64,000 bases of DNA from Hyphomicrobiales bacterium. GTDB taxonomy: Bacteria > Pseudomonadota > Alphaproteobacteria > Rhizobiales > Xanthobacteraceae. Position 1 is the first letter of the stretch. Each line of letters begins with the position of its first letter. Of the stretch, positions 36,073 to 50,780 are shown in pieces. Below the pieces are notes generated by a model. That model was not told the DNA's origin. It did no database searches and worked only from the letters and a program-made list of their open reading frames with translations. Location: contig JAFKKH010000009.1 in NCBI GenBank assembly GCA_017305665.1, positions 164,105-228,104 of the forward strand, written 5' to 3'. A program made the translations under genes and the position numbers.

Positions 36073-36097
36073 GGAACGTCCCTCAGGCCGTCGCGTT
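36073..36097 (+). promoter_or_regulatory. EcfG-type promoter of the predicted sRNA
   Basis: GGAAC (36073-36077), exactly 16 bases, CGTT (36094-36097). No reading frame follows; instead there are two stem-loops, the second with a U-tract ending about 90 bases downstream. This is the basis for the sRNA call. Confidence 0.75.
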
Positions 36098-36103
36098 ATT
36101 TGA

Positions 36104-36184
36104 ACAGCCGGTCTTCCCCCCTGCCCCAATCGACCGGCGATGAGGGGCGCGGCTGTGGTGATGCCAGCCGCGCTCTTCTTTTTT
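36104..36184 (+). ncRNA. Predicted general-stress sRNA, GsrN-like
   Basis: About 80 nt from the EcfG promoter to an intrinsic terminator. Hairpin 1: GCCGGTC (36107-36113) pairs with GACCGGC (36132-36138), leaving an 18-base loop with six consecutive C (36116-36121) and a further CCCC. Hairpin 2: bases 36142-36154 pair with 36166-36178, followed by a T-rich tract to 36184. An EcfG/sigma-T-driven sRNA with a C-rich 5' loop and a terminator stem is the layout of Caulobacter GsrN. The start is inferred from the -10 position. Without the inserted DNA, the gene would lie next to phyR. Confidence 0.65.
36154..36172 (+). repeat. attL core, left direct repeat of the island
   Basis: TGTGGTGATGCCAGCCGCG, identical over 19 bases to 50543-50561. 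It covers the loop and 3' stem of the sRNA terminator. The bases after it differ between the two copies but keep the terminator pairing and U-tract, as expected when an element restores the 3' end of its target gene. Confidence 0.75.
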
Positions 36185-36320
36185 GCCTTGATTTACGGGC
36201 ACTTCTTGAATTTCGGGACCGCGCTTACCCTAGCGCTTACCCTACCCAAATTTATTTTCGCCTTACCCTACCCGCGAACGCTTGATCTTGTTCTGTTCCC
36301 GTTCTTTTCGGCCGGGATCG
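36173..36320. repeat. Island left-end repeat, imperfect copy of 50562-50690
   Basis: After the att core, both sites share CTTCTTTTTTGCCTTG, a following TTTAC/GGCACTTC segment, CGCTTACCCTACCCA, ATTTATTTT, CGAACGCTTG and GGCCG in the same order, with indels. The similarity extends well past a normal att core. No gene with a credible start lies in 36185-36461. Confidence 0.65.
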
Positions 36321-36461
36321 GCCGCGACGAATCACCAGTCGCGCCGCCGAACCTTCTTCGGGTTTTGAAGTTGGTCCCCATCACCGCACGGCTCTAGGCA
36401 TTCATCGGTGATGAGAACGCCAATTGCGCTCCCGCCCTTCCTCTAACGGAAGGAGCGCGTC

Positions 36462-36662
36462 ATGTCAGAACGGCGACGTTTCAAACAAGCGACATCATTT
36501 CTAGATCGGCTTTCCGCATTCGCGGCGAGCGTTCGCGCGAAGGCCGACACGATGGCGGACGGCGAGGCCCGCGACGAAATGCTGCGCAAGGTCCAGCGAG
36601 CGGAGACAGCCGCCGAGATTCACGGTTGGGCGAACTCACGAGAACTTCAACCGCCGAAATAA
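36462..36662 (+). CDS. Small conserved rhizobial protein
   Basis: 66-residue basic helical protein. DEMLRKVQRAETAAEIHGWANSRELQPPK matches a small family common in Bradyrhizobium, where the C-terminus typically reads as a TAAHxxxWxxSPGLQPPK-like motif. The function is unknown. AAGGAG is 8 bases before the ATG. Only plus-strand gene at the left end of the island. Confidence 0.75.
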   Translation: MSERRRFKQATSFLDRLSAFAASVRAKADTMADGEARDEMLRKVQRAETAAEIHGWANSRELQPPK

Positions 36663-36704
36663 AACTATGCAGCCCGATATGTTCAGGCTTTTCAATGCGC
36701 CCCG

Positions 36705-36890
36705 TCAGGTCGATGACTTATCCTGAAGCCGCCGCGCGGCCTCTTCGAAGCTCGCAAAGTCCTTCGCCTCTAACAGGCGCGCCAGCGATTCAAGGTCTCC
36801 CGGTGAATCGAGCGGCGGCACGGGCTCCCGAGCATGCGGGATAGGAGTCCCGTGCCACTGTCGCAACAGCCATTTGACAATACTACTCAC
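36705..36890 (-). CDS. Hypothetical protein with a decayed paralogue right of the island
   Basis: 61 residues: a basic amphipathic start (SSIVKWLLRQWHG), then an acidic helix LESLARLLEAKDFASFEEAARRLQDKS. No family recognised. Its ATG overlaps the stop of the preceding gene (36890-36887), so the two are coupled. A frameshifted homologue lies at 51089-51190, beyond the right att site. Confidence 0.7.
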   Translation of the reverse strand: MSSIVKWLLRQWHGTPIPHAREPVPPLDSPGDLESLARLLEAKDFASFEEAARRLQDKSST

Positions 36891-37207
36891 GCGGCCTTCT
36901 TAGTCTGTTGCTTTCGCGGGCGGTGCTTTTCTTCCCGAGCGCGATTCAAATACTCTTCAGCTACTTGATGCATCAAATCCATATCGGGAAGCGCAACGAA
37001 AGCTCGCGATAAAAGAGCGTTGATGAAAGCGGCATCATCCGGCGTAACTGCGAGAATATCCCGCAAAAATAGAGAAGACTCTGTACTCGTGTCGCGCTGC
37101 GCTCCATCAGCCTTTCGCGTTATACGAAGATCAAACTCTGTACCCTCGTCGTCTAAAGCAAGCTCTTCGCAAGAGAAATGCTGAGTTTCAATTCGCCATG
37201 TCTGCAT
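36887..37207 (-). CDS. Hypothetical protein
   Basis: 106 residues, acidic in the middle and strongly basic at the end (HRPRKQQTKKAA). FLRDILAVTPDDAAFINALLSRAFVALPDMDLMHQVAEEYLNRAR is a predicted helical core. No family recognised. First gene of a two-gene unit with 36705-36890. The upstream gap holds a large inverted repeat that may be its operator. Confidence 0.65.
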   Translation of the reverse strand: MQTWRIETQHFSCEELALDDEGTEFDLRITRKADGAQRDTSTESSLFLRDILAVTPDDAAFINALLSRAFVALPDMDLMHQVAEEYLNRAREEKHRPRKQQTKKAA

Positions 37208-37282
37208 TGTTGATACTCCTTACGTTCACTAATGCAGCCGGTATATTTGCGCCGAAAAATGCGAAGTCAACAATACCTATCA

Positions 37283-37334
37283 CGCACCTACGCAGAAGTT
37301 GCGCATTCACCTACGCAACTTCTGCGTAGGTGCG
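37283..37334. promoter_or_regulatory. 21-bp perfect inverted repeat, candidate operator
   Basis: Arms 37283-37303 and 37314-37334 are perfectly complementary over 21 bases with a 10-base spacer; the core is CCTACGCAGAAGTTGCG. A further CTGCGTAG copy follows at 37341. No U-tract follows, so a regulator site is more likely than a terminator. It sits upstream of the 36887-37207 gene. Confidence 0.55.
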
Positions 37335-37424
37335 CAAAATCTGCGTAGTGACGCCTTTTCAATTCTCGGAAATAATACAACGACATCGGCTAAGCGATAT
37401 TGAAACTTAACCACGTTGTCGATT

Positions 37425-37784
37425 TCAGTTCATTTTCGGAAACGGGCGCACATCCGCTGTGGCGGAGTTTTCCAACTCGGCTTGAAGCTTCACGTCGCCA
37501 AATTGCCGAAGCAACGCAAACGCATCTTCACGCGTCGCACACGGCAGCACGTCGCGCCGGGCGCTCAACCTGGACTCTGGCGTCGTGCGCTTGATCGGCA
37601 TGAGCGCTAGGCCGCATTCCGCAGACTGGTCAGGCCAGACAACCACGACAGAGTCGCAAGCGTTGACGTGACGAGACACGAATTCTGGATCACGAAGCAA
37701 CATAGCTGCGATGGCCGCCGCCCCATTCGCAATCGCCCGCGAGATAATTTCGATTCCAAGCTCTGCATCTTCATCGTCGGCCAT
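37425..37784 (-). CDS. Hypothetical protein downstream of the tape-measure gene
   Basis: 119 residues, mixed alpha/beta by eye, with no recognised family. It starts 3 bases after the tape-measure stop codon, so it is probably co-transcribed with it. It could be a tail-associated protein by position, but nothing in the sequence confirms that. Confidence 0.65.
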   Translation of the reverse strand: MADDEDAELGIEIISRAIANGAAAIAAMLLRDPEFVSRHVNACDSVVVVWPDQSAECGLALMPIKRTTPESRLSARRDVLPCATREDAFALLRQFGDVKLQAELENSATADVRPFPKMN

Positions 37785-37787
37785 TGT

Positions 37788-39962
37788 CTATCCCCTGTAC
37801 CAAGTCGGCTTGCGCCCTGCACTGCGGACTTGCTTGTCCGCCGCGTATCGCATCAAACTCTCAATCACATCGGGCGCCGCCATGACCGGGAACGAACCGC
37901 CCGGCATATGAATGTGAGCGGGCCGCAGATCGCCCGAGTTGCCCGCCAAGGCCGCAGCCGACACGAGGCCGCCGTTCGCAAAGCGCGGCACGGACGGAGT
38001 CAACGCCGAGACAATGCCGGGGCCAAGGCCCGCAAAGGCATCGCGAAGAGACGCCGCGCGCTTGCGCACCGCCTCCATGAACGGAAGGCCGAAGAAATCG
38101 ACGGCCGACTTCGGCATGACATACTCGCCATTGGAGAGTCGCGCCGCAATGGAGTCGCTCGTGCCCGTACCGGGGCCGCGAACGGGGCCGCCTTCAGCAA
38201 AGCCCACGGCGCTGGTAGCGCCATTCACAGCGGAGCCGATAGCCTTGGCCGCGTTGATGACCGGCGCAAGCGCGGCCATGGCCCAATTCACGAGAGCGTC
38301 CAAGTAGTCCTTGACCGTGCTCACGGCGCTGTTGAATTGGTCCACTATCCACGTTGCAACATCCGTAGCGCCCGCCTTGACCGCGTCCCACACGGCGTTG
38401 ATGGCCTGAACAAAGCCATCAAACAGTGACCCGACAAAATTGAATGCGCCGGTAAAGGCATCGGAGATTGCCTGCCCGACCGCTGCCGCCACGTCGGAAA
38501 TCGAGCCGAGTTTGAGCGACGTGCTAACGATGAATCCGCCGATGGCAACGCCGAGCGCGATGAGCCCCAACGTGGTTGTGCCGAATACCGCGATGAGGCC
38601 TCCGACGACGGTTACGATTGTCGAGATAGTCGAGCCAAGCAACGTGAAGGCGCTAACCAACTGCAGCACAACAGCCGCCGCTGCGATTTCACCGCCGGTT
38701 AGGTTCGTCCCGAAAATCGCGTTGATGCCTTTCGCTACAGTATCGAGAATGCCGAGCAAGGCATTGAACGCCGGAACGATGATATTCGTCACGGCGCTGG
38801 AAACTGCATTTCCGAAATCGAGTACGCTTTGCTTGGCCTTCAGAATAAAATCGTTCTTCACATCCGCGTCGCGACCTTCCAAGACCGCGACAAGATCGGC
38901 AACGATAGGCTTCACCTTCTCCGTGATACTTGCCGCGAGAAGAACGAGAGACGTTCGGTTGCGAACGATGGCTTCCGTGAATCCATTGATGGCCTGCGTC
39001 ACGACTGGTGCGATTGTCGCGGCGATGGAGTCTTTCGCGCTGCGGGCGGCCGATGATAGCTTGTCAAAGGCTGTCGAGACCGCAAGCAGATTACGCTTCC
39101 CAAGAGCGTCAAGGGGCGGTGCAATCCGCTCCGCCTCAAGTGTCAAGTCCGCGATGCCCTTGGAGCCCTTGTTGAGGAAGCCAACGAGACTCGTTGACTT
39201 CGATTGAAACAACTCCATGGACAGGGCGGCCTTGCTCGCGCCATCCGGCAGATGTTGAAACGCGTCCGCAATGTCCTGCAGAATCTCGTTCGGCTTCTTC
39301 AATGAGCCGTCAAGATTCTTCGTGCTGATGCCTAAGCGAGTGAAGGCGTCTTGGCTGTCGGCCGCGCCCTGCCGCAGTTGGGTCAGCCTGTCGTAATATT
39401 GATCGATGTCAATATGCCCGAGATTCAACCCGCGCTGCAGATCACGAACGCTGTGATTGTATTGAGCATTACGTTTCGACGAGTCATCTAGCGCCCGCGA
39501 AACGCCGCCGATGGCCTTCGTGAAGTCTTCTCCCGACACGCCACCAAGAGCGAAAGCGTTCTTCAAGTCGGTGAACTGCTTTGTATTGATGCCTGCCGCA
39601 TCGGCCGCGTCCTGAATCGATTTTTGGTTGTCCGCGCTTCCCTTCACGAATGCGCCCACGCCGACAGCGGCGGCACTGAACGCGGCTGTCACTGCGCCAA
39701 CCTTCAGAGCAACCTCTCCGAGTGCCGACTTCAAGTTGCCGAAGGCTTCGCGACTTTTGTCGATCTCGGCGCGAACAAGCTGCGCTTTGGCCTGCAGACC
39801 GTTCAGACTCGTGCTCAAGCGGTCCGCGAAGCTACTTGCTTGCGATGCCGACTCCAGTTGTTCGAAGGCCTTCTTGCCAGCCGTGCCGATGGCCTCAAGC
39901 TGCTTCTTGATGTCCGCGCCGCCGTCAAGCGAAATGCGAACGCTAAAAGACTTAGACGCCAT
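37788..39962 (-). CDS. Phage tail tape-measure protein
   Basis: 724-residue protein. A helical N-terminal region is followed by SADNQKSIQDAADAAGINTKQFTDLKNAFALGGVSGEDFTKAIGG, several hydrophobic membrane-like segments (about 400-520) and the typical C-terminal block GFAEGGPVRGPGTGTSD then ARLSNGEYVMPKSAVDFFG. Tape-measure proteins set tail length and help DNA entry. The ATG at 39962 overlaps the end of the ribbon-helix-helix gene by 11 bases. At about 2.2 kb it would correspond to a tail of about 100 nm if functional. No other tail tube, baseplate or fibre gene is recognised nearby. Confidence 0.85.
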   Translation of the reverse strand: MASKSFSVRISLDGGADIKKQLEAIGTAGKKAFEQLESASQASSFADRLSTSLNGLQAKAQLVRAEIDKSREAFGNLKSALGEVALKVGAVTAAFSAAAVGVGAFVKGSADNQKSIQDAADAAGINTKQFTDLKNAFALGGVSGEDFTKAIGGVSRALDDSSKRNAQYNHSVRDLQRGLNLGHIDIDQYYDRLTQLRQGAADSQDAFTRLGISTKNLDGSLKKPNEILQDIADAFQHLPDGASKAALSMELFQSKSTSLVGFLNKGSKGIADLTLEAERIAPPLDALGKRNLLAVSTAFDKLSSAARSAKDSIAATIAPVVTQAINGFTEAIVRNRTSLVLLAASITEKVKPIVADLVAVLEGRDADVKNDFILKAKQSVLDFGNAVSSAVTNIIVPAFNALLGILDTVAKGINAIFGTNLTGGEIAAAAVVLQLVSAFTLLGSTISTIVTVVGGLIAVFGTTTLGLIALGVAIGGFIVSTSLKLGSISDVAAAVGQAISDAFTGAFNFVGSLFDGFVQAINAVWDAVKAGATDVATWIVDQFNSAVSTVKDYLDALVNWAMAALAPVINAAKAIGSAVNGATSAVGFAEGGPVRGPGTGTSDSIAARLSNGEYVMPKSAVDFFGLPFMEAVRKRAASLRDAFAGLGPGIVSALTPSVPRFANGGLVSAAALAGNSGDLRPAHIHMPGGSFPVMAAPDVIESLMRYAADKQVRSAGRKPTWYRG

Positions 39963-40134
39963 CGCTGTGCTTCTCCATATGTTCAAGGCCTCGCGCGAGC
40001 AAGCGGCGAACTATGATTGCGCGAGGCGACATGGAATAGAGCGCCAGCGAGTCAACCCGGCGAAGCATCGGGCCGGAAAGACGGATGGCAACTTGTGTAT
40101 CTAGGGCCGGGCCCCGTTTCTTCGGATGTTTCAT
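39952..40134 (-). CDS. Ribbon-helix-helix DNA-binding protein
   Basis: 60 residues; TQVAIRLSGPMLRRVDSLALYSMSPRAIIVRRLLARGLE fits a CopG/Arc ribbon-helix-helix fold (short strand, then two helices). Likely a small transcriptional regulator. It precedes and overlaps the tape-measure gene and is divergent from the gene at 40272, so it may autoregulate both promoters in the 137-base gap. Confidence 0.7.
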   Translation of the reverse strand: MKHPKKRGPALDTQVAIRLSGPMLRRVDSLALYSMSPRAIIVRRLLARGLEHMEKHSDGV

Positions 40135-40271
40135 GCTCCTAGTATCGGAGCGGAATCACAGCACGTCAGCAAACGAATGCATCCCGTTGCACCCCATCGC
40201 GACGAGGGGTGCGCACTTTTTAGCCCGCGATGCGAACTCTTCAGCTAAAATAGGGCACACAGGAGTCGCAA

Positions 40272-40763
40272 ATGAGGAAGCTTGCCCGCGTCGCTATCAT
40301 CCTTGTTGCAACGTTTATTGTGGTGCGCAGCGGATACATCCTCGCGACCCGCGTCTTTCAACGGGGCTCACTACCGCAAAAGCTGCATGTCGGCTGGTTC
40401 TATGCCGAGGGAAGCTGCGGCACCTTGATGAGCTATCAAGGTGCGTTTGCCTTTAGCTTAGCGCAAGACACAGTCAATCTGTTGAAACAACAAGGTCTGA
40501 CGTCCTTCAAGGACATCGACGCGCCGAATAACGAAGCGGAACGTCCTTATTTCGGCGGGGTATGGAAAGCCACGCCTATTCCGGCTGGCTCATTTACCGG
40601 CGATTCGCGGAATCTATCTTGCGGTGAGCGCTCATGGCTATGGCCAAAGGGTATACCTGAAGCTCTCCAACTTCCCGGTAGCTTTTATCAATCAATAGGC
40701 GGTCGAAGCGTCTATGTGCTGCCGGATTTAGGATTAGTGGTGGCCGTCGCTTCTGATCGGTGA
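40272..40763 (+). CDS. Hypothetical membrane-anchored protein
   Basis: 163 residues with an N-terminal transmembrane or signal segment (ARVAIILVATFIVVRSGYILA) and a probably periplasmic body containing two cysteines (GSCGTL, LSCGERS) that could form a disulfide. AGGAG lies 7 bases before the ATG. It sits in the opposite direction to the phage genes, like a moron or cargo gene. No family recognised. Confidence 0.7.
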   Translation: MRKLARVAIILVATFIVVRSGYILATRVFQRGSLPQKLHVGWFYAEGSCGTLMSYQGAFAFSLAQDTVNLLKQQGLTSFKDIDAPNNEAERPYFGGVWKATPIPAGSFTGDSRNLSCGERSWLWPKGIPEALQLPGSFYQSIGGRSVYVLPDLGLVVAVASDR

Positions 40764-40771
40764 CACTCCTT

Positions 40772-41773
40772 TTATCCGATCTCCATGCCGATCTGCGCGG
40801 CGTTCACACCGCTCGCGGTCCATGCTGCATCGGTGGCCGGGTCTGTCTCATGTATCGCGGTAGCCACCGCGTAGTCGGTCGCGAGCGCCACCGCAGCGCC
40901 GTCCGCTTCAGTCGTTCCGCTCTTCAGCTTTGCTTTGATTGACCGAAAGCCCGTATCGAGTTTCTTGGCCGCGACCCGAACTTGCACCGCATAGATTGCG
41001 TCCGGTGTATCCGCGAGTCCGTCTGTCGTGTATAGATCGGCGGCGCCCGCTACGTCGGCTTGAACGTAAGACGTGTCACCATCAACCGGAAGCTCGCCAA
41101 CCATGGCGTAGTTATCGGAGCCTGTTGACGCCGTGAAGTCCTTCTGCGCCGTGTCCGCAGTCGGGACGAGCGTATCAATGCGGACTTCTCCGATTCTTGA
41201 GGCCGTATCCGTAATGTAAAGATCGTCAACTAGATAGCCATTCACCGGGGCAATTATCGCAACTGCTGCCACGTCGGCCGCGCCGGTATTGACGCCACTT
41301 GCCGACATTATAAGAGCCCCATTCAAATATACATTCACAGCGCCAGCGGACGCGTGACGCGTAAACTCGACTTCAAGATAATACCATGCATCTACACTGA
41401 CTGTTCCTGATGGCGCTGTCGCTAGGACGTTTGAAGACACAGTCGAGCCACGAACGAAAACCAAACCGCCATCTGGATTAAAAAACAGCCCCGCAATGGT
41501 GTTGGCGCTTGCGTCGCGAAAAGCTAACGCCTGAACAGTGGCGCCGCCGGAAGCCAACAACAGCTTGAACGCGTGTCCAACGGCTACTGTGCTTGTTGTC
41601 GATATCCCTTTGCGAATAGCCGTCGTAACGAACCCCAAATTTAAGCTAGACCCGGAGAAGCGTCCCGTGCTGCCGTAAGTAATAGAGCCTAAGCCTGCGG
41701 TTGTGTAAGCCTGCGACAGCAGGCCATTGCTTGAATCGTAGTCCTCGAATCCGTCAATCCACGTAATCGCCAT
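40772..41773 (-). CDS. Virion-like protein, possible concanavalin/LamG fold
   Basis: 333 residues starting MAITWIDGFEDYDS, a start seen in phage structural proteins. The segment VDAWYYLEVEFTRHASAGAVNVYLNGALIM is typical of LamG/concanavalin-like beta-sandwiches. The C-terminal part (about 235-333) looks like another beta-rich domain. A role in tail or host binding is inference. The ATG at 41773 is used; the frame runs on to 41917 across a terminator hairpin. Confidence 0.65.
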   Translation of the reverse strand: MAITWIDGFEDYDSSNGLLSQAYTTAGLGSITYGSTGRFSGSSLNLGFVTTAIRKGISTTSTVAVGHAFKLLLASGGATVQALAFRDASANTIAGLFFNPDGGLVFVRGSTVSSNVLATAPSGTVSVDAWYYLEVEFTRHASAGAVNVYLNGALIMSASGVNTGAADVAAVAIIAPVNGYLVDDLYITDTASRIGEVRIDTLVPTADTAQKDFTASTGSDNYAMVGELPVDGDTSYVQADVAGAADLYTTDGLADTPDAIYAVQVRVAAKKLDTGFRSIKAKLKSGTTEADGAAVALATDYAVATAIHETDPATDAAWTASGVNAAQIGMEIG

Positions 41774-42117
41774 CGCACCCTGTCCTCGCGGTTGTTCCGT
41801 CGCGAGGATCGCGGAATCGGCATCTTGTGTCAGCCAACGAAAAAGCGACGCGGCCGGGCGCTGAGAACACCCGGCCGCGTCTTGGCCTACAAGGTCACAC
41901 GGATTGAACAGCCACAACCTTGCGGCCCGGCGGCGATCCTAGCAGCGGTTGGTTACTTGTTTCGTACCCTACAAAATTCTCAGATCGCCTTTAGCATTTG
42001 TTTACCCTCGTCTGAAACCACGAACTTTATGCAATCGAATTAACTGCGGTTCAATACAGCGCGACTAGGTTCATCACGGGCAACGGACCCGCGAGACAAT
42101 CATTTTTGGAGCTACCC
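41774..42117. other. Gap between the virion-like gene and the Flp pilin gene
   Basis: Holds the minus-strand terminator hairpin at 41848-41880 and, in 41930-42100, an AT-richer stretch that should contain the flp promoter. I see no additional gene. The terminator faces nothing upstream on the minus strand, suggesting that genes once upstream were deleted. Confidence 0.5.
41848..41880 (-). terminator. Rho-independent terminator, minus orientation
   Basis: Perfect 11-bp stem ACGCGGCCGGG / CCCGGCCGCGT with an 11-base loop. On the minus strand the stem is followed by CGCTTTTTC. No minus-strand gene lies immediately upstream. Confidence 0.75.
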
Positions 42118-42294
42118 ATGAAGAACCTTGTTGCGCGTTTCATCAAAGACGAGTCGGGCGCCACCGCGATTGAATACGGTTTGATCGCTGCAGGAATCTC
42201 GCTCGCGATCATCGCGATTGTGACCAGCCTCGGCAGCACGGTCAGCGGCAAATTCCAATCTATCGACACGAATCTGCAGGCCGCTGGCAAGTAA
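42118..42294 (+). CDS. flp: Flp family type IVb pilin
   Basis: 58-residue prepilin: basic leader MKNLVARFIKDESG, then the conserved cleavage and helix region ATAIEYGLIAAGISLAIIAIV. Glu and Tyr at the +5/+6 positions after the Gly are the Flp signature. Exported and processed by a TadV-type peptidase, it polymerises into tight-adherence pili. No tad/cpa assembly genes lie nearby, so it depends on a locus elsewhere. Its own terminator follows. An orphan inside the island. Confidence 0.92.
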   Translation: MKNLVARFIKDESGATAIEYGLIAAGISLAIIAIVTSLGSTVSGKFQSIDTNLQAAGK

Positions 42295-42322
42295 TCCGCG
42301 CGGACCTTCCGACGAAAAAGAC

Positions 42323-42356
42323 GCCCCGGTCTCACGGCCGGGGCTTTTGCTTTTTG
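42323..42356 (+). terminator. Rho-independent terminator of flp
   Basis: Stem GCCCCGG (42323-42329) / CCGGGGC (42338-42344), followed by TTTTGCTTTTT. It lies about 30 bases after the flp stop codon. Confidence 0.88.
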
Positions 42357-42680
42357 CGACGTTCGCGGATCGGCGCCGGGGTAGCAAATCCCTCCAAGGC
42401 CCTTTGTTATAGAAACCCTGAAAAATTTTTATCATACAAATTCGAGGCCAGCGCCACGTTTTTGCCCGCATGACTTTTTGCTGCCAAAGGACCCGTAAAA
42501 ATTTTCAGGGCCAGTGGCTCGTGGGAGTCGTGAGGAAAAATTTTCTCGTTCGGATTTTTGAAAATATTTTCGCTGCATGAGTGAGGAAAGCACTGTGGCT
42601 CTATATTAAATCACTCGTGCGAATACGTGTCTGGATAGATGCATTGAAATAGGGATCGCGCACCAATTGTCGGGGCTCAC

Positions 42681-42957
42681 TGTGAACGGCTGTGAACGCC
42701 TTGTGAACACCCTAGTGGCAACAGTGAAACCCGCATGAAATGGGCCTAACCTAGCTGCTGTGAACACTGTGAACACTAAATCAATAGGTCAGTAAATATC
42801 CAGAGTACTAGGGCTTAAGTAGCGGCGCGATGGCCTTCCCGGCATTTTTCGGACCTGATGCCGAATAGCGTTCACAGCGTTCACAAATGCAAGTTGTGCC
42901 TGTGCCGCAACAACTTCTCTGTTGCCACTAGGGTGTTCACAGGTGGTCACAGTGAAC
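42681..42957. other. Iteron array, probable replication origin of the island
   Basis: Eight exact copies of TGTGAAC, usually continuing as TGTGAACAC or TGTGAACGC. Five are direct (42681, 42691, 42702, 42759, 42768) and three inverted (42870, 42879, 42935), with a one-mismatch copy at 42951. They flank an AT-rich segment (42775-42820). A perfect 23-bp inverted repeat (42702-42724 and 42919-42941) contains one iteron in each arm. The array touches the 3' end of the helicase gene, as satellite origins do. The rest of the 650-base gap (42357-42680) shows no gene. Confidence 0.7.
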
Positions 42958-44737
42958 ACTTGCGAAGCTTGATGCCGAAGAATCCGCGCATGATCGCACC
43001 TTCGCCGTGCCCGTCTCGCGATGGGTCACGCCATCGTCGCCGCCCGTGGCGCACGCCTTGCGCCCCAAGAGCGGCAATCAAATCAGTCTTGAAGTCGTTC
43101 CGGTTGCGCCACTCCCGGCTGTTGAGCGATTCAGCCGTGGCCCACGCCTCATATGCTTCGAAGCATTCAGGCAGGCCGACTCTATCGGTCATGTCTCCGG
43201 TGACGATGAGGCAGGCCTTAGCGAACCGCAGCGCGGGGCTCTGACTTTCCGCCAGATCGCGCAAGGCCGCTGCGCCCTTGGCGCCAACGGTGAATCGCAT
43301 CTCGTTCGCCCGGAGACGCTTCAGGGCCGCCAGTGCGGCGTTGGCGATGCCCGGCAGTTCCCCGTGCAGCTTGGCTCCTAGCTCGCGATCCTCGCTGCCC
43401 TCAAAGCTCCGCTCGAACACCACGACCAATTCACGAGCCGCAAGCGCGCCGGAGTCGTCGAGGAATCGAGGGTGCCGGTTGGCGGCGATGGCGAGCCGGG
43501 CCGGGACGTGCCCGGTCACGATGCGCAGCCCCTTACGGTTGATTGACACTTCATCGCCGCCGCTGATGGCTTTGATCCTGTCCAGCGCAACAGCACGGCG
43601 CGACGCTTCGGTGTCGCTGGCGTCCGGCACTAGGAGCAGCTTTTTATCAGACAGACCCTCAAGGGCGAAATCCGTCGCCAAGTCGTGCAGGGTACGGGAC
43701 GCCGTATGCGTAGCCCCGACAAGGGCGCTCATCACGTTCAGGATAGTGGATTTGCCGCCACGCCGCGCGCCGATCAAGGCCAGCAGTTTATGCGCTGATG
43801 TGTCCGGTGTGAGGCAATAGCCAATGAATTCGAGCAGCGTCGGATGGTATGACTCATGCAACCATTCCCCAAGGCAACGGTCCCATGTCGGGCACGTCGC
43901 CGCCGGATCGTAATTGAAGTCGGGAAGTCCGGTCGCGAAGAGCGCGCCGGTGTGGGGATGCAGGACTCCCGTCCCGATATCGAGCACGCCGTTCTTAAAC
44001 AACACAAGGTCGCGCGCCAACGGCGCGTCAATCGGCTCGTCTATCCAGTCGAAGGGCTGCGCTGCCGTGTGTCGCTCAACATGGAGAGCACGGGCAATCT
44101 GCCGGATGCGCGCCGTGTCTAGAGTCAGGTCGGGATCACATGCACGGAATTCGGCCGCGACTGCATCTTCCGAGACCTCTCGCCAGATTTTCGATTCCGC
44201 TTCAAGGCTATAGAGCGTGCCGTTGCTCGAAATGACCTTGCCGGGCCGTGAAAACAAAATCGTGTCGAGTACCTTGGCATTGTTTTGCTTCGGATCGATG
44301 AGAATGGGGCGCGGCCACGTCGTCAGGCCGCCTTCCATCCATGAATCGTCCTCGTCGTCGTCAAGGTCTTCGAAGTCGCTCGGAGCGTCGGGACGCGCGA
44401 CTGAGAGCAGGCCGGGCACGTTGACGGAATGTGAATAGGCGCTGCTCACCTGAAGCGAGATATCATCCTTCGAAAGCAGCGGGCGGCAGAAGGCGCACAT
44501 GAGGCGAACCGCCGTGCGCTCGGAAATCCCCTGCGCATAGAGTCGATGCGCAAGGTCATAGGCGTTTCGCTCTCCAAAGGCATCGGCGGACAGGCCCGAT
44601 TCCATCGCCTTGCAAAGACGCGTCCCCTCGCGGACATCAACTTCATTATCCCACCCCCAACGCGGTCGGATTTTCTCGTCGGCTGTCGCAGGCGTGGGCC
44701 AGGTATTCGTTGGTTGAGAGGATTTTGAGTCAGGCAT
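42947..44737 (-). CDS. D5/SF3 replication helicase (phage/plasmid primase-helicase type)
   Basis: 596-residue replication protein. The C-terminal half is an SF3 helicase: Walker A IGARRGGKSTILNVMSALVG, Walker B KKLLLVPDAS, motif C LAIAANRHPRF with the sensor Asn. It is preceded by the D5_N region (LLEFIGYCLTPDTSAHKLLALIG). The N-terminal 200 residues show no TOPRIM or AEP primase motif that I can recognise. Such proteins start replication of P4-like and PICI satellites by binding iterons at the origin. The origin-like array overlaps and follows its 3' end. Confidence 0.88.
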   Translation of the reverse strand: MPDSKSSQPTNTWPTPATADEKIRPRWGWDNEVDVREGTRLCKAMESGLSADAFGERNAYDLAHRLYAQGISERTAVRLMCAFCRPLLSKDDISLQVSSAYSHSVNVPGLLSVARPDAPSDFEDLDDDEDDSWMEGGLTTWPRPILIDPKQNNAKVLDTILFSRPGKVISSNGTLYSLEAESKIWREVSEDAVAAEFRACDPDLTLDTARIRQIARALHVERHTAAQPFDWIDEPIDAPLARDLVLFKNGVLDIGTGVLHPHTGALFATGLPDFNYDPAATCPTWDRCLGEWLHESYHPTLLEFIGYCLTPDTSAHKLLALIGARRGGKSTILNVMSALVGATHTASRTLHDLATDFALEGLSDKKLLLVPDASDTEASRRAVALDRIKAISGGDEVSINRKGLRIVTGHVPARLAIAANRHPRFLDDSGALAARELVVVFERSFEGSEDRELGAKLHGELPGIANAALAALKRLRANEMRFTVGAKGAAALRDLAESQSPALRFAKACLIVTGDMTDRVGLPECFEAYEAWATAESLNSREWRNRNDFKTDLIAALGAQGVRHGRRRWRDPSRDGHGEGAIMRGFFGIKLRKCSL

Positions 44738-44792
44738 AGCTTCACCAAAGTTGGATGGTCTCGGCGGACTGTCTGACTGTCTCCATCACTAA

Positions 44793-44819
44793 CCCACCGG
44801 CTTCGGCCGGTGGGTTTTT
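44793..44819 (+). terminator. Rho-independent terminator in plus orientation
   Basis: Stem CCCACCGGC / GCCGGTGGG closed by a C(TTCG)G tetraloop, followed by TTTTT on the plus strand. No plus-strand gene precedes it within 2.4 kb; the neighbouring genes are all minus. It could block antisense transcription. Confidence 0.75.
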
Positions 44820-44820
44820 G

Positions 44821-45453
44821 TTACCCGAAGTCATCTAAAGGCGCAGGCTCATACGTAATATCCGTATGAATCCCGCAATCTTCGTCCTGCGAGATACGCG
44901 CGTTCATGATTGCGTCGGGCGACGGCGGTAGATTCTCGCTTGGCTCTTCGCGCGCCGGAAGCGGCGGCAATGGCTCATCATAGTCTATGTCAGTGATGAG
45001 CCAGCCACCGTCCTGCGATATGCGCGCATTAACGACGGCATCCGGTGTCGGCTGCGGTGGATACGGCATCAATATTGGAAATGCGCCGCCGTTAACCCAT
45101 ACCGCAAGGTCAGAGCGCCAGAGCCAGACTGTTGGTCCGATGTTACTTTCAAACTCAACCGCCTTCGCGCCCCATCGGAAGCGGGCACGGATCGGGTGCT
45201 CGTCGTCATAAATTTGCCAGTCCATGTCCGGCGGGTCGTCCGGATCAAGCGCATAAGCCCTAAGCGCTCCGCACTCAAACTCAAATATATCCCGCGCATT
45301 GTTAAGCGTGACGTATGTTGGTCCGTTGTCATCCGACTTGAATACGAACACGACGGATTTTTTCGCGATATCCATGCAGCGTTTCAAGCGACGTTCCGCC
45401 AAACGTTGCGCTTTGGAAGGGACAACACGCGTCGGTGTCATCTTGATAGGCAT
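44821..45453 (-). CDS. Hypothetical protein with an internal repeat
   Basis: 210 residues. A basic N-terminus is followed by a beta-rich middle (VTLNNARDIFEFECGALRAYALD). The C-terminal third contains a duplicated unit, PDAVVNARISQDGGWLITDIDYD and PDAIMNARISQDEDCGIHTDITYE, separated by a proline-rich linker. No family recognised. Its ATG overlaps the stop of the preceding gene as TAATG. Confidence 0.65.
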   Translation of the reverse strand: MPIKMTPTRVVPSKAQRLAERRLKRCMDIAKKSVVFVFKSDDNGPTYVTLNNARDIFEFECGALRAYALDPDDPPDMDWQIYDDEHPIRARFRWGAKAVEFESNIGPTVWLWRSDLAVWVNGGAFPILMPYPPQPTPDAVVNARISQDGGWLITDIDYDEPLPPLPAREEPSENLPPSPDAIMNARISQDEDCGIHTDITYEPAPLDDFG

Positions 45454-45827
45454 TACACTTCCTCCAATTCGGGGAAGGTACAACCCTCATCGTGATCCAT
45501 CCACGCGCGCAACGTTTGGCGGCGAAGTTGAAATTTGTGACCTGACGCCAGCGAGAACACCAATGCCTGCGGCGTAATCGCCCATGAGATTCGATCTCCA
45601 AGCGTCCTGAATCCGCGTGCAGCCCATGCATTCGCAAGCGGGTCGCCGTCTTTCGTCGTGCCACGCGCGTATGGCCCTAGGAAGCTATGAGCTAATGCCA
45701 CGCGGTCACGACCGTAATTGAAAACGGCCGTGGCATCCGATTCGTAGTCAGCTAAAAAGAAAAAGGCCCGGTATGCGCGCGCTTCCTCTAGATAGCCTTC
45801 ATATGTCAACGCTTCTTCGTCGGCCAT
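45453..45827 (-). CDS. Hypothetical protein
   Basis: 124 residues; aromatic-rich N-terminal helix (YEGYLEEARAYRAFFFLADYESDA) and a basic middle. No family recognised. Start and stop both overlap neighbouring genes (TGATG at the start, TAATG at the end), placing it inside a translationally coupled minus-strand operon. Confidence 0.65.
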   Translation of the reverse strand: MADEEALTYEGYLEEARAYRAFFFLADYESDATAVFNYGRDRVALAHSFLGPYARGTTKDGDPLANAWAARGFRTLGDRISWAITPQALVFSLASGHKFQLRRQTLRAWMDHDEGCTFPELEEV

Positions 45828-46147
45828 CACTTCGACTCCCGAAACTCAACCGGAAAGCCGACATCTCCGCTCCCGAACCACTCGCCCGAGTCATTTTTCC
45901 AGATGCTCGCGATTTGTCTGGCGTTGCGCCCGTCGCCCTCTTCGCCTTGAGCGGCCACACTAATGCTAATGGACGTAACGGACGGACTCAATTTGGTAGC
46001 GAATCTAAGCATCGCACACGGATTTATTGCGAGAACAGCAGGTTTAAAAACGATATACGCTGTCGTGACGTATTGTTTAATGTCTGTTTGATAGGAGATA
46101 AAGCTGCAACGAGAGAGTTCTTCAGGGTCCACTTCGGAATAAGTCAT
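45827..46147 (-). CDS. Hypothetical protein
   Basis: 106 residues starting MTYSEVDPEELSRC. SPSVTSISISVAAQGEEGDGRNARQIASIWKNDSGEWFGSGDVGFPVEF looks beta-rich. No family recognised. The ATG at 46147 overlaps the TGA of the 39-codon gene upstream. A longer frame to 46312 is open but would run through that gene. Confidence 0.6.
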   Translation of the reverse strand: MTYSEVDPEELSRCSFISYQTDIKQYVTTAYIVFKPAVLAINPCAMLRFATKLSPSVTSISISVAAQGEEGDGRNARQIASIWKNDSGEWFGSGDVGFPVEFRESK

Positions 46148-46263
46148 TTCGGAATTCTCCGATAAGTGAAGACGAGCATTCGCGAGCCGTCTTCCTTGAT
46201 GCAATACATTCGCTTGATGCCGTCGCGGCCGGTGCGCGTCACCAACCGTTTGCATCCATTCAC
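46144..46263 (-). CDS. Very small gene, 39 residues
   Basis: GTG start at 46263 inside the stop region of the AlpA-like gene (GTGA overlap) and TGA at 46146-46144 inside the ATG of the next gene. The product is basic: MNGCKRLVTRTGRDGIKRM followed by YCIKEDGSRMLVFTYRRIPK. Precise overlaps at both ends support a real gene filling what otherwise would be a hole in a tightly packed operon. The function is unknown. Confidence 0.5.
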   Translation of the reverse strand: MNGCKRLVTRTGRDGIKRMYCIKEDGSRMLVFTYRRIPK

Positions 46264-46481
46264 TTGCGGCGGCGCTTCGCTTTGGCTCGGCCTTCAACCG
46301 TGCGCCCATCAACGCGCGTCTTGAAGTAACGTTTGACCGCGCGCATGTCGTAAACGGATCGAATGCCGTCGCGACGCGGACGCGGAAAATTTCGGTTGGT
46401 AGACGTCAGCACGTAGATGCGCGACATTGAAAGTCCCGAGAAATCGGCAACGTCTTCGATCAATCCTTCATATCTCTTCAT
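46260..46481 (-). CDS. AlpA-like DNA-binding protein
   Basis: 73 residues. VADFSGLSMSRIYVLTSTNRNFPRPRRDGIRSVYDMRAVKRYF has the layout of AlpA/excisionase-type winged helix proteins: recognition helix, FPxPxR-like wing, then a helix. The C-terminus is very basic (RAKAKRRRK). A regulatory role in the element is likely but inferred. It begins the coupled gene run that ends at 44821. Confidence 0.6.
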   Translation of the reverse strand: MKRYEGLIEDVADFSGLSMSRIYVLTSTNRNFPRPRRDGIRSVYDMRAVKRYFKTRVDGRTVEGRAKAKRRRK

Positions 46482-46538
46482 CTCAAATCACCTGTTTTCG
46501 TTGAAACGAATAAACGATAAAATGCCGTTCTGATTTTC

Positions 46539-46865
46539 TCAGCCAACGAATGAGCGTTGTCGATACGCGGACTCGCTGTGAAACAACGCCCACCATTCGG
46601 AAAGATCGGCTTTCAAATATCTCGCGTCGAAGAAATCGCCACGGACAACAGGCCGCAAAAACTTGCCATCGTTCGCCGCTCGCCGCATCGTCTCCAAATC
46701 GACCTTCAAGCGCTTGGCGAATTCCGGGAGCGTTGCCGTCGACTCAATGAGGCGCGCGAACGTGGCACGCCCCTCGTCGTCAACCGCCGCGCATGTCCGC
46801 CCCCCGATATCGGTGACGCCAATCAAGCCACCACCGATATTGGGGATCGTAAAGCGCAAGCGCAT
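46539..46865 (-). CDS. Hypothetical protein with HTH-like segment
   Basis: 108 residues. The first half is a beta-rich segment (IGGGLIGVTDIGGRTCAAVDDEG); the second half, LPEFAKRLKVDLETMRRAANDGKFLRPVVRGDFFDARYLKADLSEWW, resembles a MerR/excisionase-like helix-turn-helix. The ATG at 46865 overlaps the upstream stop as TGATG. Confidence 0.6.
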   Translation of the reverse strand: MRLRFTIPNIGGGLIGVTDIGGRTCAAVDDEGRATFARLIESTATLPEFAKRLKVDLETMRRAANDGKFLRPVVRGDFFDARYLKADLSEWWALFHSESAYRQRSFVG

Positions 46866-47137
46866 CACGACGAAGGCGGCTTTCCGGCCGAATTGTATCG
46901 CCGATAGATTTCGGTCGGATTCAGGTCCGCCGCCGTCTTCGGGCGATCCTTTCGGCCATACGCGGACGTTGCGGTGTTCTTCGTTCCAGCAAGCACGCGC
47001 TCAATCTCTTCGTCGCTCGCCCGATCAATGGTCGCGTCGCCGGTCGTGCCCGCACGAATGGAGCGGTCCGCACGAGTGCCACCATTCTCGGCGCGAAATG
47101 CTTCAATCGCTGTCCTCAGTCTGCCCATATGAGCCAT
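46865..47137 (-). CDS. Hypothetical protein
   Basis: 90 residues, polar and charged, probably partly disordered (AENGGTRADRSIRAGTTGDATIDRASDEEIERVLAGTK). No family recognised. AAGGA lies about 8 bases before the ATG. Coupled to the following gene by TGATG. Confidence 0.6.
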   Translation of the reverse strand: MAHMGRLRTAIEAFRAENGGTRADRSIRAGTTGDATIDRASDEEIERVLAGTKNTATSAYGRKDRPKTAADLNPTEIYRRYNSAGKPPSS

Positions 47138-47186
47138 TTCGATAATCCTTTAGGTTGTTGGAAAATGAACTGTCGGGTAGTTGGTG

Positions 47187-47221
47187 CGCCGCCTTCGCGG
47201 GACGTAAACGCGAAGGCGGCG
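47187..47221. repeat. Perfect 13-bp stem-loop between island genes
   Basis: CGCCGCCTTCGCG (47187-47199) pairs with CGCGAAGGCGGCG (47209-47221). There is no T-tract on either strand, so it is not a standard terminator; it may affect mRNA processing in the 133-base gap. Confidence 0.6.
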
Positions 47222-47270
47222 ATCCGGCACGCGCTGGAACTTATGGAGAAGGACGCGCGCGGATTCTGAA

Positions 47271-48383
47271 CTAGTCAGTCACGGTATCGGACAGACGCGG
47301 GCCTTGACTCGTCCACTTGCTTGAGCGCACGAGCTTGGCGTCCGGCGGCGTCTCCATCTTGGGAATCTCAACCGGGTCCGCGAGCGAGCCCGCGCCGTGC
47401 GCTTCGCGCTTCGCTTGTTCAACCTCGATTCCGAGAACGGCGCGCGGGTCCGCGTCGTGGCGACGGATCGCGGTCGTGTCATTTGCCGACTGCAAAGCGA
47501 AAACCGTCGCCTCTTCGATACGCTCCATATCAAGCAACTCGGCATGAAGCCGCATGCGCATCGGCTCACGGTCGGAAATCGCAATCGGTGTAAAAGCGCT
47601 CTTTTTAATGCGCTCGTCTGCATCATTCACGAGCTTTTCACGAAGAGCATCCGGAAAAAGCCAAGCGAGCGCGGCGAGTCCATCCGGCACACGTCGGCCG
47701 CCGGTTCCGGTCCACGCTTCCGGCCATCGGATAGCGCCCTGTCGGCGCGTTCGGGCGTTTGTCCCTTCATAGCGCGTGACGCCGTAAATATCAGGACCGC
47801 TCGCAACCAACTTGGCGATATCGGCATCAATCGCAGCCGTCGCATCGTTCAGCGTCAATGGTGCAAGATCGATGGACTCAATCTCGCCGCGCTTCCCATC
47901 GATTTCGGCACGGATTTTCACGAGATGTTTTCGCAAGTCGCCAGTTGGCGCCGGTGCGATTCGTTCGTAAAATTTCGCGTGCTCGTTGGCGGTCAAGAAG
48001 CGCAAGCAACGGTCAAGGTGATTGCCTTCGGTCGCGCGCTGCATTTCTTGGAGTTTCTGTTTTCTCGTTTCGCGCTCAGCGTCGAATTCTGCAAGCGCGG
48101 TCTGTGCCTCGATAAGGGCGGCTCCAGCTTCTTTGATGTATTCAGGATAAGAGTCCCGCGTCCGGCGAAGATATGACTCGGCCCGCTCAGCGTCGATACG
48201 CAGCGCCATCCGCTTCTCGCCGTCCGCAACGGTCTGTTTCCATTTGCCTTCTGACAAGGCATCGGCGCTGCGGGCATCTGAACGTATACGCCGCAACGCC
48301 GTTCGCGCGTACTCCGGAAGTCGTCGCTCGATCTTTTTAAGATCGTTACGGGGCGCAATGCGGTCTGGCAAATGTTCTAACAT
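47271..48383 (-). CDS. Hypothetical coiled-coil protein
   Basis: 370 residues. The first 200 residues are charged and helical with coiled-coil character (ERRLPEYARTALRRIRSDARS, AQTALAEFDAERETRKQKLQEMQRA). The rest contains WLFPDALREKLVNDADERIKKSAFTPIAISDREPMRMRLHAELLDMER, and the C-terminus looks disordered. No family recognised. The ATG at 48383 (MLEHLPDR) is used. Confidence 0.65.
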   Translation of the reverse strand: MLEHLPDRIAPRNDLKKIERRLPEYARTALRRIRSDARSADALSEGKWKQTVADGEKRMALRIDAERAESYLRRTRDSYPEYIKEAGAALIEAQTALAEFDAERETRKQKLQEMQRATEGNHLDRCLRFLTANEHAKFYERIAPAPTGDLRKHLVKIRAEIDGKRGEIESIDLAPLTLNDATAAIDADIAKLVASGPDIYGVTRYEGTNARTRRQGAIRWPEAWTGTGGRRVPDGLAALAWLFPDALREKLVNDADERIKKSAFTPIAISDREPMRMRLHAELLDMERIEEATVFALQSANDTTAIRRHDADPRAVLGIEVEQAKREAHGAGSLADPVEIPKMETPPDAKLVRSSKWTSQGPRLSDTVTD

Positions 48384-48472
48384 GTTCGATCCTTCGTTGC
48401 TGAAATCTGAAGGCAACATGGGACGAGAGGGCCGAACGCGATAGCCGCAAGAATCGAAACGTGCGGCCACAA

Positions 48473-48850
48473 CTATCGAGACTTGCGCCCTCGCAAGATT
48501 GCGCGAACCTCTTTCGGTCGCTTGCCCCGCGCCAACGCTTCCGCACGCGTTCTCTCTAACGTGCGGTTTCCGGGGAGATTTGCGAACTGCGGATACACCG
48601 AGTCAAACGCGGCTTGATCGAATCCCGGTCGCGTTTTCTTGGCGCTATACTGCTCGATAAAATCCGCCAGCGTTTCATGACGCGCGCCCGTCATAGGATC
48701 GGGGCCGCGCATGTTCAGCGGAAGATTGTCAGATGCGAACTGCGTTGCGTCGTCGGGAAGCTTCGGACAGAGACCGCGAACCAATGGCGCGATGTTGCCT
48801 GCATCGTGGCACTGCGCAACTAGCAGCTTTATGTCAATGTCCGACCGCAT
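48473..48850 (-). CDS. Hypothetical protein
   Basis: 125 residues; acidic helical start (MRSDIDIKLLVAQCHDAGN), basic C-terminus (RGKRPKEVRAILRGRKSR). No family recognised. The start is uncertain: an in-frame TTG at 48877 would overlap the excisionase-like gene, while the ATG at 48850 has no clear Shine-Dalgarno. It lies between the excisionase-like and coiled-coil genes in the same direction. Confidence 0.55.
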   Translation of the reverse strand: MRSDIDIKLLVAQCHDAGNIAPLVRGLCPKLPDDATQFASDNLPLNMRGPDPMTGARHETLADFIEQYSAKKTRPGFDQAAFDSVYPQFANLPGNRTLERTRAEALARGKRPKEVRAILRGRKSR

Positions 48851-48867
48851 TGTAAGGTACGAAACAA

Positions 48868-49056
48868 TTAGCGGCAACGGAAAGCGTTGATCGAGCGTCC
48901 AGTGATCCGGCGCGACCTGCCTACGGTGAATGATCCCAAATCACCATCGGCCAACATTTCAAAAACTTTACTTTGGGATATTTCGAGGATTAGCGCAGTC
49001 GTGCGAACACTAAACGAACGCTCTTCGAACGGAACGCTTTCAATGTCATCTGTCAT
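48868..49056 (-). CDS. Excisionase-like helix-turn-helix protein
   Basis: 62 residues. FSVRTTALILEISQSKVFEMLADGDLGSFTVGRSRRITGRSINAF is the common excisionase/MerR-like winged helix in which a resolved helix is followed by the GRSRRIT wing. Placed 75 bases after the integrase stop in the same direction, it is the natural candidate for directing excision. The ATG at 49056 is used. Confidence 0.75.
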   Translation of the reverse strand: MTDDIESVPFEERSFSVRTTALILEISQSKVFEMLADGDLGSFTVGRSRRITGRSINAFRCR

Positions 49057-49130
49057 AATGTCATGGCTCCATAATCGACCATGACAGACCATGGACCGCC
49101 CCACGGGACCATCTCAACCAACGATTACAA

Positions 49131-50342
49131 TTACCCGGTGAGTGAAACGACGTTCCGGGCGGCGGGCTTTCCCGCAACGAACGTTGCCCATGACTCCATA
49201 AGCAATCGCCGCTTCTTCAATGCGGTGCCACGGCGATACGCTTGCTCAACCTCGTTGCCGACCGCATGCGCGAGCGCGGCTTCTGCCGTCTCGCGAGGAA
49301 ATTCAGTCTCATCCCCACACCAGTCACGGAACGACGATCTGCAGCCGTGAACAGTCATGCCCGGCGCAACGCGTTTCAGGACGTGCAATAGCGCGTTCTC
49401 GCCTATGTATTGATCGGGCTTCAACCCAACGAAAACATAATCTTTTGGCTTCGCATCTTTGGCGATCAAGAATTTCAGAATCGCGACTGCCCTATCAGAC
49501 AGGGGAACGATGTGGTCAACGTCCATCTTCATACGTGCTGCTGGTATCGTCCACTCGCGACGTTCGAAATTCACTTCAGCAACTCGCATGGCGCGGGCCT
49601 CCGTCGTGCGAACGGCGGTCAGGATGACGAATTCAAGGGCTAGATTCGTCGTGGCATCGCTCAACTGAATCGCAGTGATGATGCGCGGCATATCCTTGTA
49701 GGGCGGTGCGGGATGATGCCGCTTCTTGCGCTTGGTGCTCGCCAGAAATACCGACAGATGCCCACGCCACCGGGCCGGGTTTTCGCCGGACCTATACCCG
49801 AGAGCTTTCGCCGCATCCAAGATGCGTTCGATCCGGCCGCGCAATTCGGAGGCCGTGCGGTGTTTCGTGGTCCAGATCGGGCGCAGCACGTTCAACACGT
49901 CATCGGTGCCGATATCTGCAATCACCATGGGACGAAGCGCCGCGCACCGCTTCTCTATGTCGCGCTTCCAATCGGCATGCGTCGTCTTCGATTTGAATGA
50001 GGGTTTGAGCCCCGCAAGGTAATCGTCTGCGAACTCGCCAAACTTCACGCTGGCGGCGCGCTCCGCTTCCTTGGCCTTCAACGGGTCGATTCCCTCCCGC
50101 AGGCTCTTCCGAAATGCATCGGCCTTGTCGCGGGCTTCCGAGAGCGTCAGGCCGGGCTTGTCCTTGCCCTTGGCTGGCCCTAGGCCCGCTTCGCGCGGCC
50201 GTCCCTTGTCTTTCCAAATGAAGACCCATGACCGGCTCTGCGGACCGCGTACGACCAAATAGAGGCCGCCGCCGTCAGAATGTCGGCCGGGTTTATCGAG
50301 CGCTTCTGCTGCCTTCGCTGTGAGCTTGTGAAGGGTCGCCAT
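49131..50342 (-). CDS. int: Tyrosine recombinase/integrase with DUF4102 N-terminus
   Basis: 403-residue P4-type integrase. The N-terminal DUF4102 arm-binding domain (RHSDGGGLYLVVRGPQSRSWVFIWKDKGRPREAGLG) is followed by a SAM-like core-binding domain and the catalytic domain. Catalytic residues are visible: Arg in TAVRTTEARAM, the HGCRSSFRDW box (His-x-x-Arg), LAHAVG (second His) and the nucleophile Tyr in VEQAYRRG. It lies 200 bases from the att core at 50543, as is normal for this family. It mediates integration into the sRNA gene. Confidence 0.95.
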   Translation of the reverse strand: MATLHKLTAKAAEALDKPGRHSDGGGLYLVVRGPQSRSWVFIWKDKGRPREAGLGPAKGKDKPGLTLSEARDKADAFRKSLREGIDPLKAKEAERAASVKFGEFADDYLAGLKPSFKSKTTHADWKRDIEKRCAALRPMVIADIGTDDVLNVLRPIWTTKHRTASELRGRIERILDAAKALGYRSGENPARWRGHLSVFLASTKRKKRHHPAPPYKDMPRIITAIQLSDATTNLALEFVILTAVRTTEARAMRVAEVNFERREWTIPAARMKMDVDHIVPLSDRAVAILKFLIAKDAKPKDYVFVGLKPDQYIGENALLHVLKRVAPGMTVHGCRSSFRDWCGDETEFPRETAEAALAHAVGNEVEQAYRRGTALKKRRLLMESWATFVAGKPAARNVVSLTG

Positions 50343-50359
50343 CGCCGGAATCCTCTTCG

Positions 50360-50403
50360 GGTAGGGCGCGGCTGGTACTTCGAAATGCCAGCCGCGCCCT
50401 ACC
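50360..50403. repeat. Hairpin in the integrase leader resembling the sRNA terminator
   Basis: Perfect 16-bp arms GGTAGGGCGCGGCTGG / CCAGCCGCGCCCTACC with a 12-base loop, 18 bases upstream of the integrase start. GCGCGGCTG and GCCAGCCGCGC are the same sequences that form the sRNA terminator stem at 36147-36173. It is followed by CGCTTACCCTACC, also present next to both att sites. Confidence 0.65.
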
Positions 50404-50441
50404 GCTTACCCTACCGGCGGCGATGGTCAAATCTGGAGCGC

Positions 50442-50531: not shown

Positions 50532-50542
50532 TCGGCCGAAAA

Positions 50543-50774: not shown

Positions 50775-50780
50775 TGTGGC

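Follow-up and report, generated by a model that had tools for sequence, protein, structure and literature searches.

A conserved candidate stress sRNA convergent with phyR, and the recurrence of islands at its terminator hairpin

In a 64,000-nucleotide stretch of a Hyphomicrobiales genome, referred to below as the window, we identified a predicted small RNA (sRNA) gene preceded by an EcfG-type promoter motif and followed by a 14.4-kb element that begins in its terminator hairpin. The reading that best accounts for this arrangement, to which we assign a probability of roughly 83%, is that the gene encodes a general-stress sRNA of the Bradyrhizobium/Rhodopseudomonas/Tardiphaga lineage, which ancestrally converges with phyR and whose terminator hairpin is used as attB by elements carrying a tyrosine integrase. 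What we see in the sequence is the conservation and covariation of the RNA, duplication of its hairpin, swapped 3' arm types, island-free sites, recurrence at other loci and a group of integrases found at the site. Both the conservation of the stress-sRNA candidate and the status of its terminator as a recurrent island site are well supported.

A first-pass annotation had described GGAAC-N16-CGTT, two stem-loops, a loop of six C and a U-tract between positions 36073 and 36184, and all of these were confirmed where they had been placed. The EcfG-type promoter motif, a match by sequence, occupies 36073–36097 on the plus strand, and the start of the predicted sRNA gene (36107–36184, plus strand) was placed from it, the gene itself being supported by its fold, covariation and family matches; the RNA is predicted to be about 79 nt long. 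In stem 1, positions 36107–36113 pair with 36132–36138 and enclose the C-rich loop (36114–36131, plus strand), a putative mRNA-pairing site with CCCCCC at 36116–36121, and terminator hairpin 2 with its U-rich tract (36142–36184, plus strand) has arms at 36142–36155 and 36165–36178. The region from 36100 to 36185 folds at -41.4 kcal/mol (z -4.27), with none of 200 shuffles as good, and hairpin 2 with its tail has a fold z of -3.80. Taken alone, stem-loop 1 (36106–36136) does not stand out (z -1.49; 20 of 200 shuffles fold as well). Nor does the promoter motif on its own exceed chance in the window, where GGAAC-N15-18-CGTT has five matches against 2.44 expected and 13 of 100 shuffles reach five; the observation rises above chance because the sRNA is conserved in relatives beside phyR. 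At its gathering threshold Rfam has no family matching at the sRNA, and the sub-threshold matches there, at E up to 10, are not usable. Elsewhere in the window, Rfam matches were obtained for BjrC1505 (141 bits; 6266–6405, minus strand) and for the 5' ureB sRNA (102.8 bits; 59102–59390, plus strand).

Using blastn (E <= 0.001), the sRNA was matched in 95 of 296 genomes of the same family, and a covariance model built from 30 sequences (five of the window's genus, the window included, and 25 of other genera) matched 113 of the 296, 94 of them at 57.7 bits or above. In the 30-sequence alignment, 95.4% of the cells pair and 10 of the 19 pairs, involving 65 cells, change on both sides; these pairs comprise eight of the 12 in hairpin 2 and two of the seven in stem 1. 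None of 500 shuffles reached the real alignment in four of five measures, the covariation score included, and in the fifth, further pair types, the same alignment is not above the shuffles (112 of 500). The tested structure is the consensus fold of this very alignment, which gives it some advantage; slid versions score much worse. Of the 30 aligned sequences, 28 have the second loop, GGTGATGCC, without change, and 25 contain the C-rich loop, CCCCTGCCCC.

A scan of a genome collection yielded 117 stretches, of which the 80 listed (L088–L167) were used, and 72 of these contain a strong model match (at least 81.9 bits). The other eight (L091, L099, L108, L118, L121, L125, L144 and L146), which come from Chloroflexi, Arthrobacter, Gemmiger and other unrelated genomes, lack the promoter and score at most 16.9 bits; they were dropped as chance matches. 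L162 was left out of the promoter count, its flank being too short on one side, so that 71 named relatives remained. Among the matches listed, the named hosts are mainly Bradyrhizobium, and also Rhodopseudomonas and Tardiphaga; GGAAC stands 34–36 nt ahead of the CCGG of stem 1 in all 71, and 69 have GGAAC-N16-17-NGT(C/T), a looser N15-19 form of which occurs in 42 of 7100 shuffled upstream sequences. The earlier proposal that an EcfG-like promoter precedes a conserved sRNA of two hairpins, one with a C-rich loop, is thus upheld by the motif in relatives and by covariation. GGAAC-N16/17 is presumably of the EcfG -35 type. It agrees, in general terms only, with the sites in the excerpted text of PMC5869019. 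At the other end of the promoter, GTC is far commoner than GTT, which only three of the 71 named relatives have among the matches listed, and the rarity of the window's CGTT ending counts against the best explanation. In many Bradyrhizobium copies (e.g. L101 and L147), an inverted repeat, ACGACTC...GAGTCGT, was noticed by eye inside the EcfG-type promoter; the window has none. Bradyrhizobium retamae (L133) has two sRNA copies 1.1 kb apart, at 1797–1882 (97.0 bits) and 2931–3015 (89.4 bits), the second of which has no EcfG-type promoter, likeness starting near the predicted transcription start. No match to the sRNA was found among PLSDB plasmids.

To the right of the sRNA in the window lie phyR (51295–52188, minus strand; PhyR_sigma2, PhyR_sigma-like and Response_reg domains), nepR (52324–52542, plus strand; PF18557, E 6.1e-17) and the gene for a sigma factor of EcfG type (52542–53090, plus strand; Sigma70_r2 and Sigma70_r4_2), for which the name EcfG is suggested by position; the gap between sRNA and phyR is 15.1 kb. 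Among the matches listed, 114 genomes have a PhyR at least 79% identical, and the sRNA model matches 95 of these and is absent from 19. The sRNA and phyR could be measured as convergent on one contig in 91 of these 95 genomes among the matches listed, with gaps of 71–209 bp in 52, 615–800 bp in nine, 1–5 kb in 16 and more than 5 kb in 14. These figures leave out 18 of the 113 model-match genomes (28.8–44.9 bits) and retain G173 (33.4 bits), which has its match beside phyR; one of those left out, G037 (44.9 bits), has its match 0.8 kb from phyR and may belong to the family as a genuine distant member. Close linkage spans 10 genera, and in the window's genus three of the four measurable genomes have gaps of 75–103 bp, the fourth being the window.

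These distances support an sRNA that would ancestrally have been convergent with phyR at about 100 bp, as the first-pass annotation had supposed. It had also named island-free relatives lacking the stem-loop pair near phyR as evidence against itself, and this holds for a part of the genus: the short-gap genomes retain the pair, and four of nine same-genus genomes have no covariance-model match beside phyR, only decayed remnants being visible by eye. Such remnants were seen in G001, G006, G008 and G007 (L011–L014), and that of G006 keeps the promoter and has lost both loops. Given these four genomes and the 19 of 114 with a close PhyR (among the matches listed) that lack a match, the RNA is dispensable in some genomes.

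Two other accounts of the hairpins have to be weighed against this evidence. If they were merely the terminator region of phyR or of an upstream gene, islands would target a terminator and not an RNA gene, and a stem-loop 1 that is thermodynamically unremarkable on its own would be no surprise. However, a terminator needs neither a promoter motif at a fixed distance from stem 1, as found in 71 of 71 relatives among the matches listed, nor a C-rich loop kept in 25 of 30 sequences above a stem with both-side changes in two of its seven pairs, and we regard this account as highly improbable. The sRNA might instead be real and depend on a sigma factor other than EcfG, with no general-stress role and only an incidental proximity to phyR. 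We consider this quite unlikely: the scarcity of the strict CGTT form (GTT in three of 71 named relatives among the matches listed) and the chance-level frequency of the motif in the window are in its favour, but GGAAC is present in every one of these relatives and the close linkage to phyR extends across the 10 genera.

Preferring, then, a stress sRNA that is probably transcribed by EcfG, as its promoter sequence suggests, we turn to the element at its 3' end. Element 1 (36166–50545, 14.4 kb, with ends given to the nearest repeat) was delimited from repeats, integrase, primase and island-free relatives. Its direct repeats, 14.4 kb apart, are identical at 48 of 52 nt: the sRNA-side att repeat (attL; 36154–36205, plus strand) begins in the loop of the terminator hairpin and has its core, GGTGATGCC, at 36157–36165, and the far att repeat (attR; 50543–50594, plus strand) has its core at 50546–50554 and contains the displaced 3' arm, GCGTCCTTC. 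The tyrosine integrase gene (49131–50342, minus strand; Arm-DNA-bind_3, Phage_int_M and Phage_integrase) lies 0.2 kb from the far repeat. Of the 11 open frames tested in the element, others encode a D5/P4-type primase (42947–44737, minus strand; DUF5906, D5_N and DNA primase PHROGs), a tape-measure-like protein (37788–39986, minus strand), which matches PHROGs and no Pfam family and whose assignment may rest on coiled-coil similarity, and a protein matching PHROGs of unknown function; six have no Pfam or PHROGs match, and one more has no Pfam match. The island of G227, with 14.3 kb between its repeats, encodes an integrase (62%) and a primase (49%) related to those of element 1, and weakly matches the tape-measure-like protein as well. 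As no capsid or terminase gene was seen, these elements may be phage satellites. The integrase's best match in phage records is at 42% identity, and none of the primase matches there reaches 80% query coverage. In IMG/VR no integrase relatives were confirmed, and a single match to the att-core pattern was read by eye as chance and rejected.

Beyond the far repeat lies a second-element remnant (50570–51189), parts of which repeat, in register, the left end of element 1. A degenerate copy of the sRNA's original 3' end (51184–51208, plus strand), some 90 bp from phyR, aligns with the island-free site of G004; the three same-genus genomes with gaps of 75–103 bp also offer island-free sites. Within the remnant (50720–51010), a possible small histidine-rich reading frame was noticed by eye on the minus strand.

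The 3' arm of the window's sRNA contains GCGCTC; the far repeat, which does not fold, and four other intact sRNAs of the genus have GCGTC. The simplest reading of these arm types is that the present 3' end came with the element and that the host's own was moved to the far side, the split falling, to judge from where identity begins, in the hairpin loop or at the start of the 3' arm. The window's hairpin has a predicted stability of -33.8 kcal/mol now versus -34.1 kcal/mol in the rebuilt empty site. When six loci were folded, the sRNA-side hairpin was strong in all of them (-28.8 to -34.2 kcal/mol), as was the rebuilt empty site (-26.8 to -37.4 kcal/mol), and the far copy was weak in five (-14.1 to -16.8 kcal/mol), that of G140 being a whole hairpin (-34.8 kcal/mol). 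Arms and folding in the window are hence those of a target gene restored, with the fragment it lost lying at the far end. The displaced arm of G188 agrees with that of island-free G169; since the present sRNA arm type of G188 is also found in G197 and G249, few relatives bear on the direction of the swap.

Together with duplications at other loci, the 52-nt att repeats and swapped arms bear out the claim that the 3' end of the sRNA is an integration site. The accompanying idea, that an island in this position would couple the core stress response to a mobile element, finds no support in the window genome, because the terminator has been rebuilt at equal strength and should still terminate; coupling by read-through was set aside on the same ground, and the window gives no sign of the island changing the RNA or being driven by it.

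Hairpin duplications were found in eight of 36 examined expanded loci and in none of 172 control segments. Seven of 35 expanded loci carry a duplicate of their own hairpin scoring at least 15, a cut-off that was set after a first look at the data, and G272, tested apart from the 35, has a hairpin copy of 31 nt with 30 identities; the expanded loci G091, G154, G186 and G203 are outside this count. The weakest duplicate, that of G243 (15.5), is marginal, since two of 700 shuffled hairpins reach 14, and one of these attains 16.5. In G188, G227 and G243 the far copy is about 100–150 bp from phyR, at the place where island-free genomes have the end of the sRNA, and in G031, G272, G140 and G234 it is 1.4–4.3 kb away. 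In G272 (L226, L227), the sRNA and phyR share a strand but are separated by 2.13 Mb, with the integrase and far repeat still beside phyR, an arrangement typical of a large inversion having one of its breakpoints in the element.

It could be argued that expansions and repeats reflect local duplication or general rearrangement instead of site-specific integration into the hairpin. The 28 of 35 expanded loci without a duplicated hairpin, the absence of any integrase domain, among the matches listed, from the gaps of ten expanded genomes (G188, which has a 29-residue integrase remnant only, included), the promoterless second copy in B. retamae and the whole-hairpin far copy of G140 all point that way; from the first two of these, many expansions may indeed have other causes or be decayed. 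Against this, in eight loci of three genera the repeats coincide in covering the same loop and 3' arm, a pattern seen in none of the 172 control segments, and wherever a nearly full-length integrase gene is present, which is the case in four loci, it stands about 0.2 kb from one or other copy. We therefore give rearrangement little chance of being the general explanation and retain integration into the sRNA terminator.

The integrases themselves form a group at this site. Among the 296 genomes, the best-scoring are the window's own and those of G227 (62–63%) and G272 (58%), all three beside phyR, and the next by score is 49% identical to the window's. In a tree of 21 integrases, those of the window, G227, G272 and G031 are set apart from the 17 others at 99/99; for six of the 17 (G003, G045, G077, G186, G238 and G258) the position of phyR was compared, and none of these is beside it. 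The integrase of G031 is very divergent and located at the same sRNA site; its long branch makes its placement in the tree uncertain, and it may have arrived independently. In G031 (L073), the integrase gene follows the sRNA in the same direction at a distance of about 0.2 kb, behind a hairpin 3' end with a poor U tract, a layout through which stress could raise integrase expression and excision. Stress-mobility coupling is speculative, and the broader proposal that satellite-like elements of about 14 kb are adapted to the stress-sRNA terminator, the stress promoter reaching the element in some hosts, seems to us unlikely.

Transcription of the RNA, its EcfG dependence, pairing with mRNA and integrase action at the hairpin are steps that we infer. 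EcfG would transcribe the RNA under stress and the 3' hairpin would end transcription, and promoter, loop and the precedent of GsrN suggest that the sRNA probably acts by pairing of its C-rich loop with G-rich mRNA stretches. The integrase would recombine in the conserved hairpin loop or at the start of the 3' arm, at the GGTGATGCC common to the repeats, where the inverted arms and fixed loop may resemble a recombinase core site. The element would arrive with a 3' arm and U tract of its own, by which the sRNA gene would be rebuilt, and the host's old 3' half would be left on the phyR side as a mostly non-folding fragment.

This analysis adds comparative support, from covariation, promoter and synteny, for a stress sRNA that had been predicted in the lineage from location and promoter alone, and places a probable stress-response RNA with the RNA genes that are split and rebuilt by mobile elements. 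Whether the sRNA acts as GsrN does can now be tested in a tractable rhizobium or in Rhodopseudomonas, as can whether islands at the site alter or exploit the stress response.

A GsrN-like sRNA at this locus is not new: according to the excerpted text of PMC5869019 (Tien et al. 2018), GsrN homologues are predicted in Rhizobiaceae, R. palustris and B. diazoefficiens, typically near the stress-response locus, with C. crescentus an exception, and the R. palustris and B. diazoefficiens predictions rest solely on location and promoter. These two may be the same RNA as the window's. In what that source describes, GsrN (CCNA_R0081, Caulobacter) and the window's sRNA share a stress-sigma promoter and a C-rich loop with six C near the 5' end, and GsrN-like sRNAs in general share with it a 3' intrinsic terminator and a gene near the phyR/ecfG locus; the window's sRNA thus has the promoter (as a motif only), C-rich loop, terminator and phyR proximity of a GsrN-like RNA. 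The sizes differ, GsrN being about 106 nt and processed in the same excerpts, and the window's sRNA a predicted 79 nt or so. When 190 genomes from across the class were searched under strict filters, the family model had no convincing match beyond the family, the highest other score being 31.9 bits. Homology to Caulobacter GsrN, which the first-pass annotation had proposed, is plausible and unproved. The katG leader is a known GsrN target; at the nearest start codon, it pairs with the loop at -8.6 kcal/mol versus a mean of -13.7 (sd 4.0) for 36 window genes, and because of this poor pairing in the present strain the targets may differ from those of GsrN. The part of PMC5082802 consulted lists ten B. 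japonicum sRNAs and names an EcfG promoter for none of them.

The excerpts of PMC5869019 mention no island at a gsrN gene, and our literature search found no paper on an island at this sRNA. That sRNA genes are targets of islands and prophages is already known from the passages available of PMC8373256 and PMC5502288. The former describes integrase-bearing islands at the PrrF1/PrrF2 locus in several unrelated strains of Pseudomonas aeruginosa, which, as in the window, hit a conserved sRNA locus and leave the regulatory sRNA intact; there the insertion follows one sRNA of a tandem, nearly identical pair, whereas in the window the hairpin of a single sRNA appears to have been split and rebuilt. 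The latter, citing others, gives sRNA genes as 17% of Salmonella prophage sites, so that sRNA genes again act as attachment sites, in other hosts and with other sRNAs. Islands known to restore a split target gene, as far as the sources consulted describe them, do so with island sequence and leave a displaced fragment at the far end, as we propose for the window; what would distinguish the window's case is that the target is the terminator of a regulatory sRNA.
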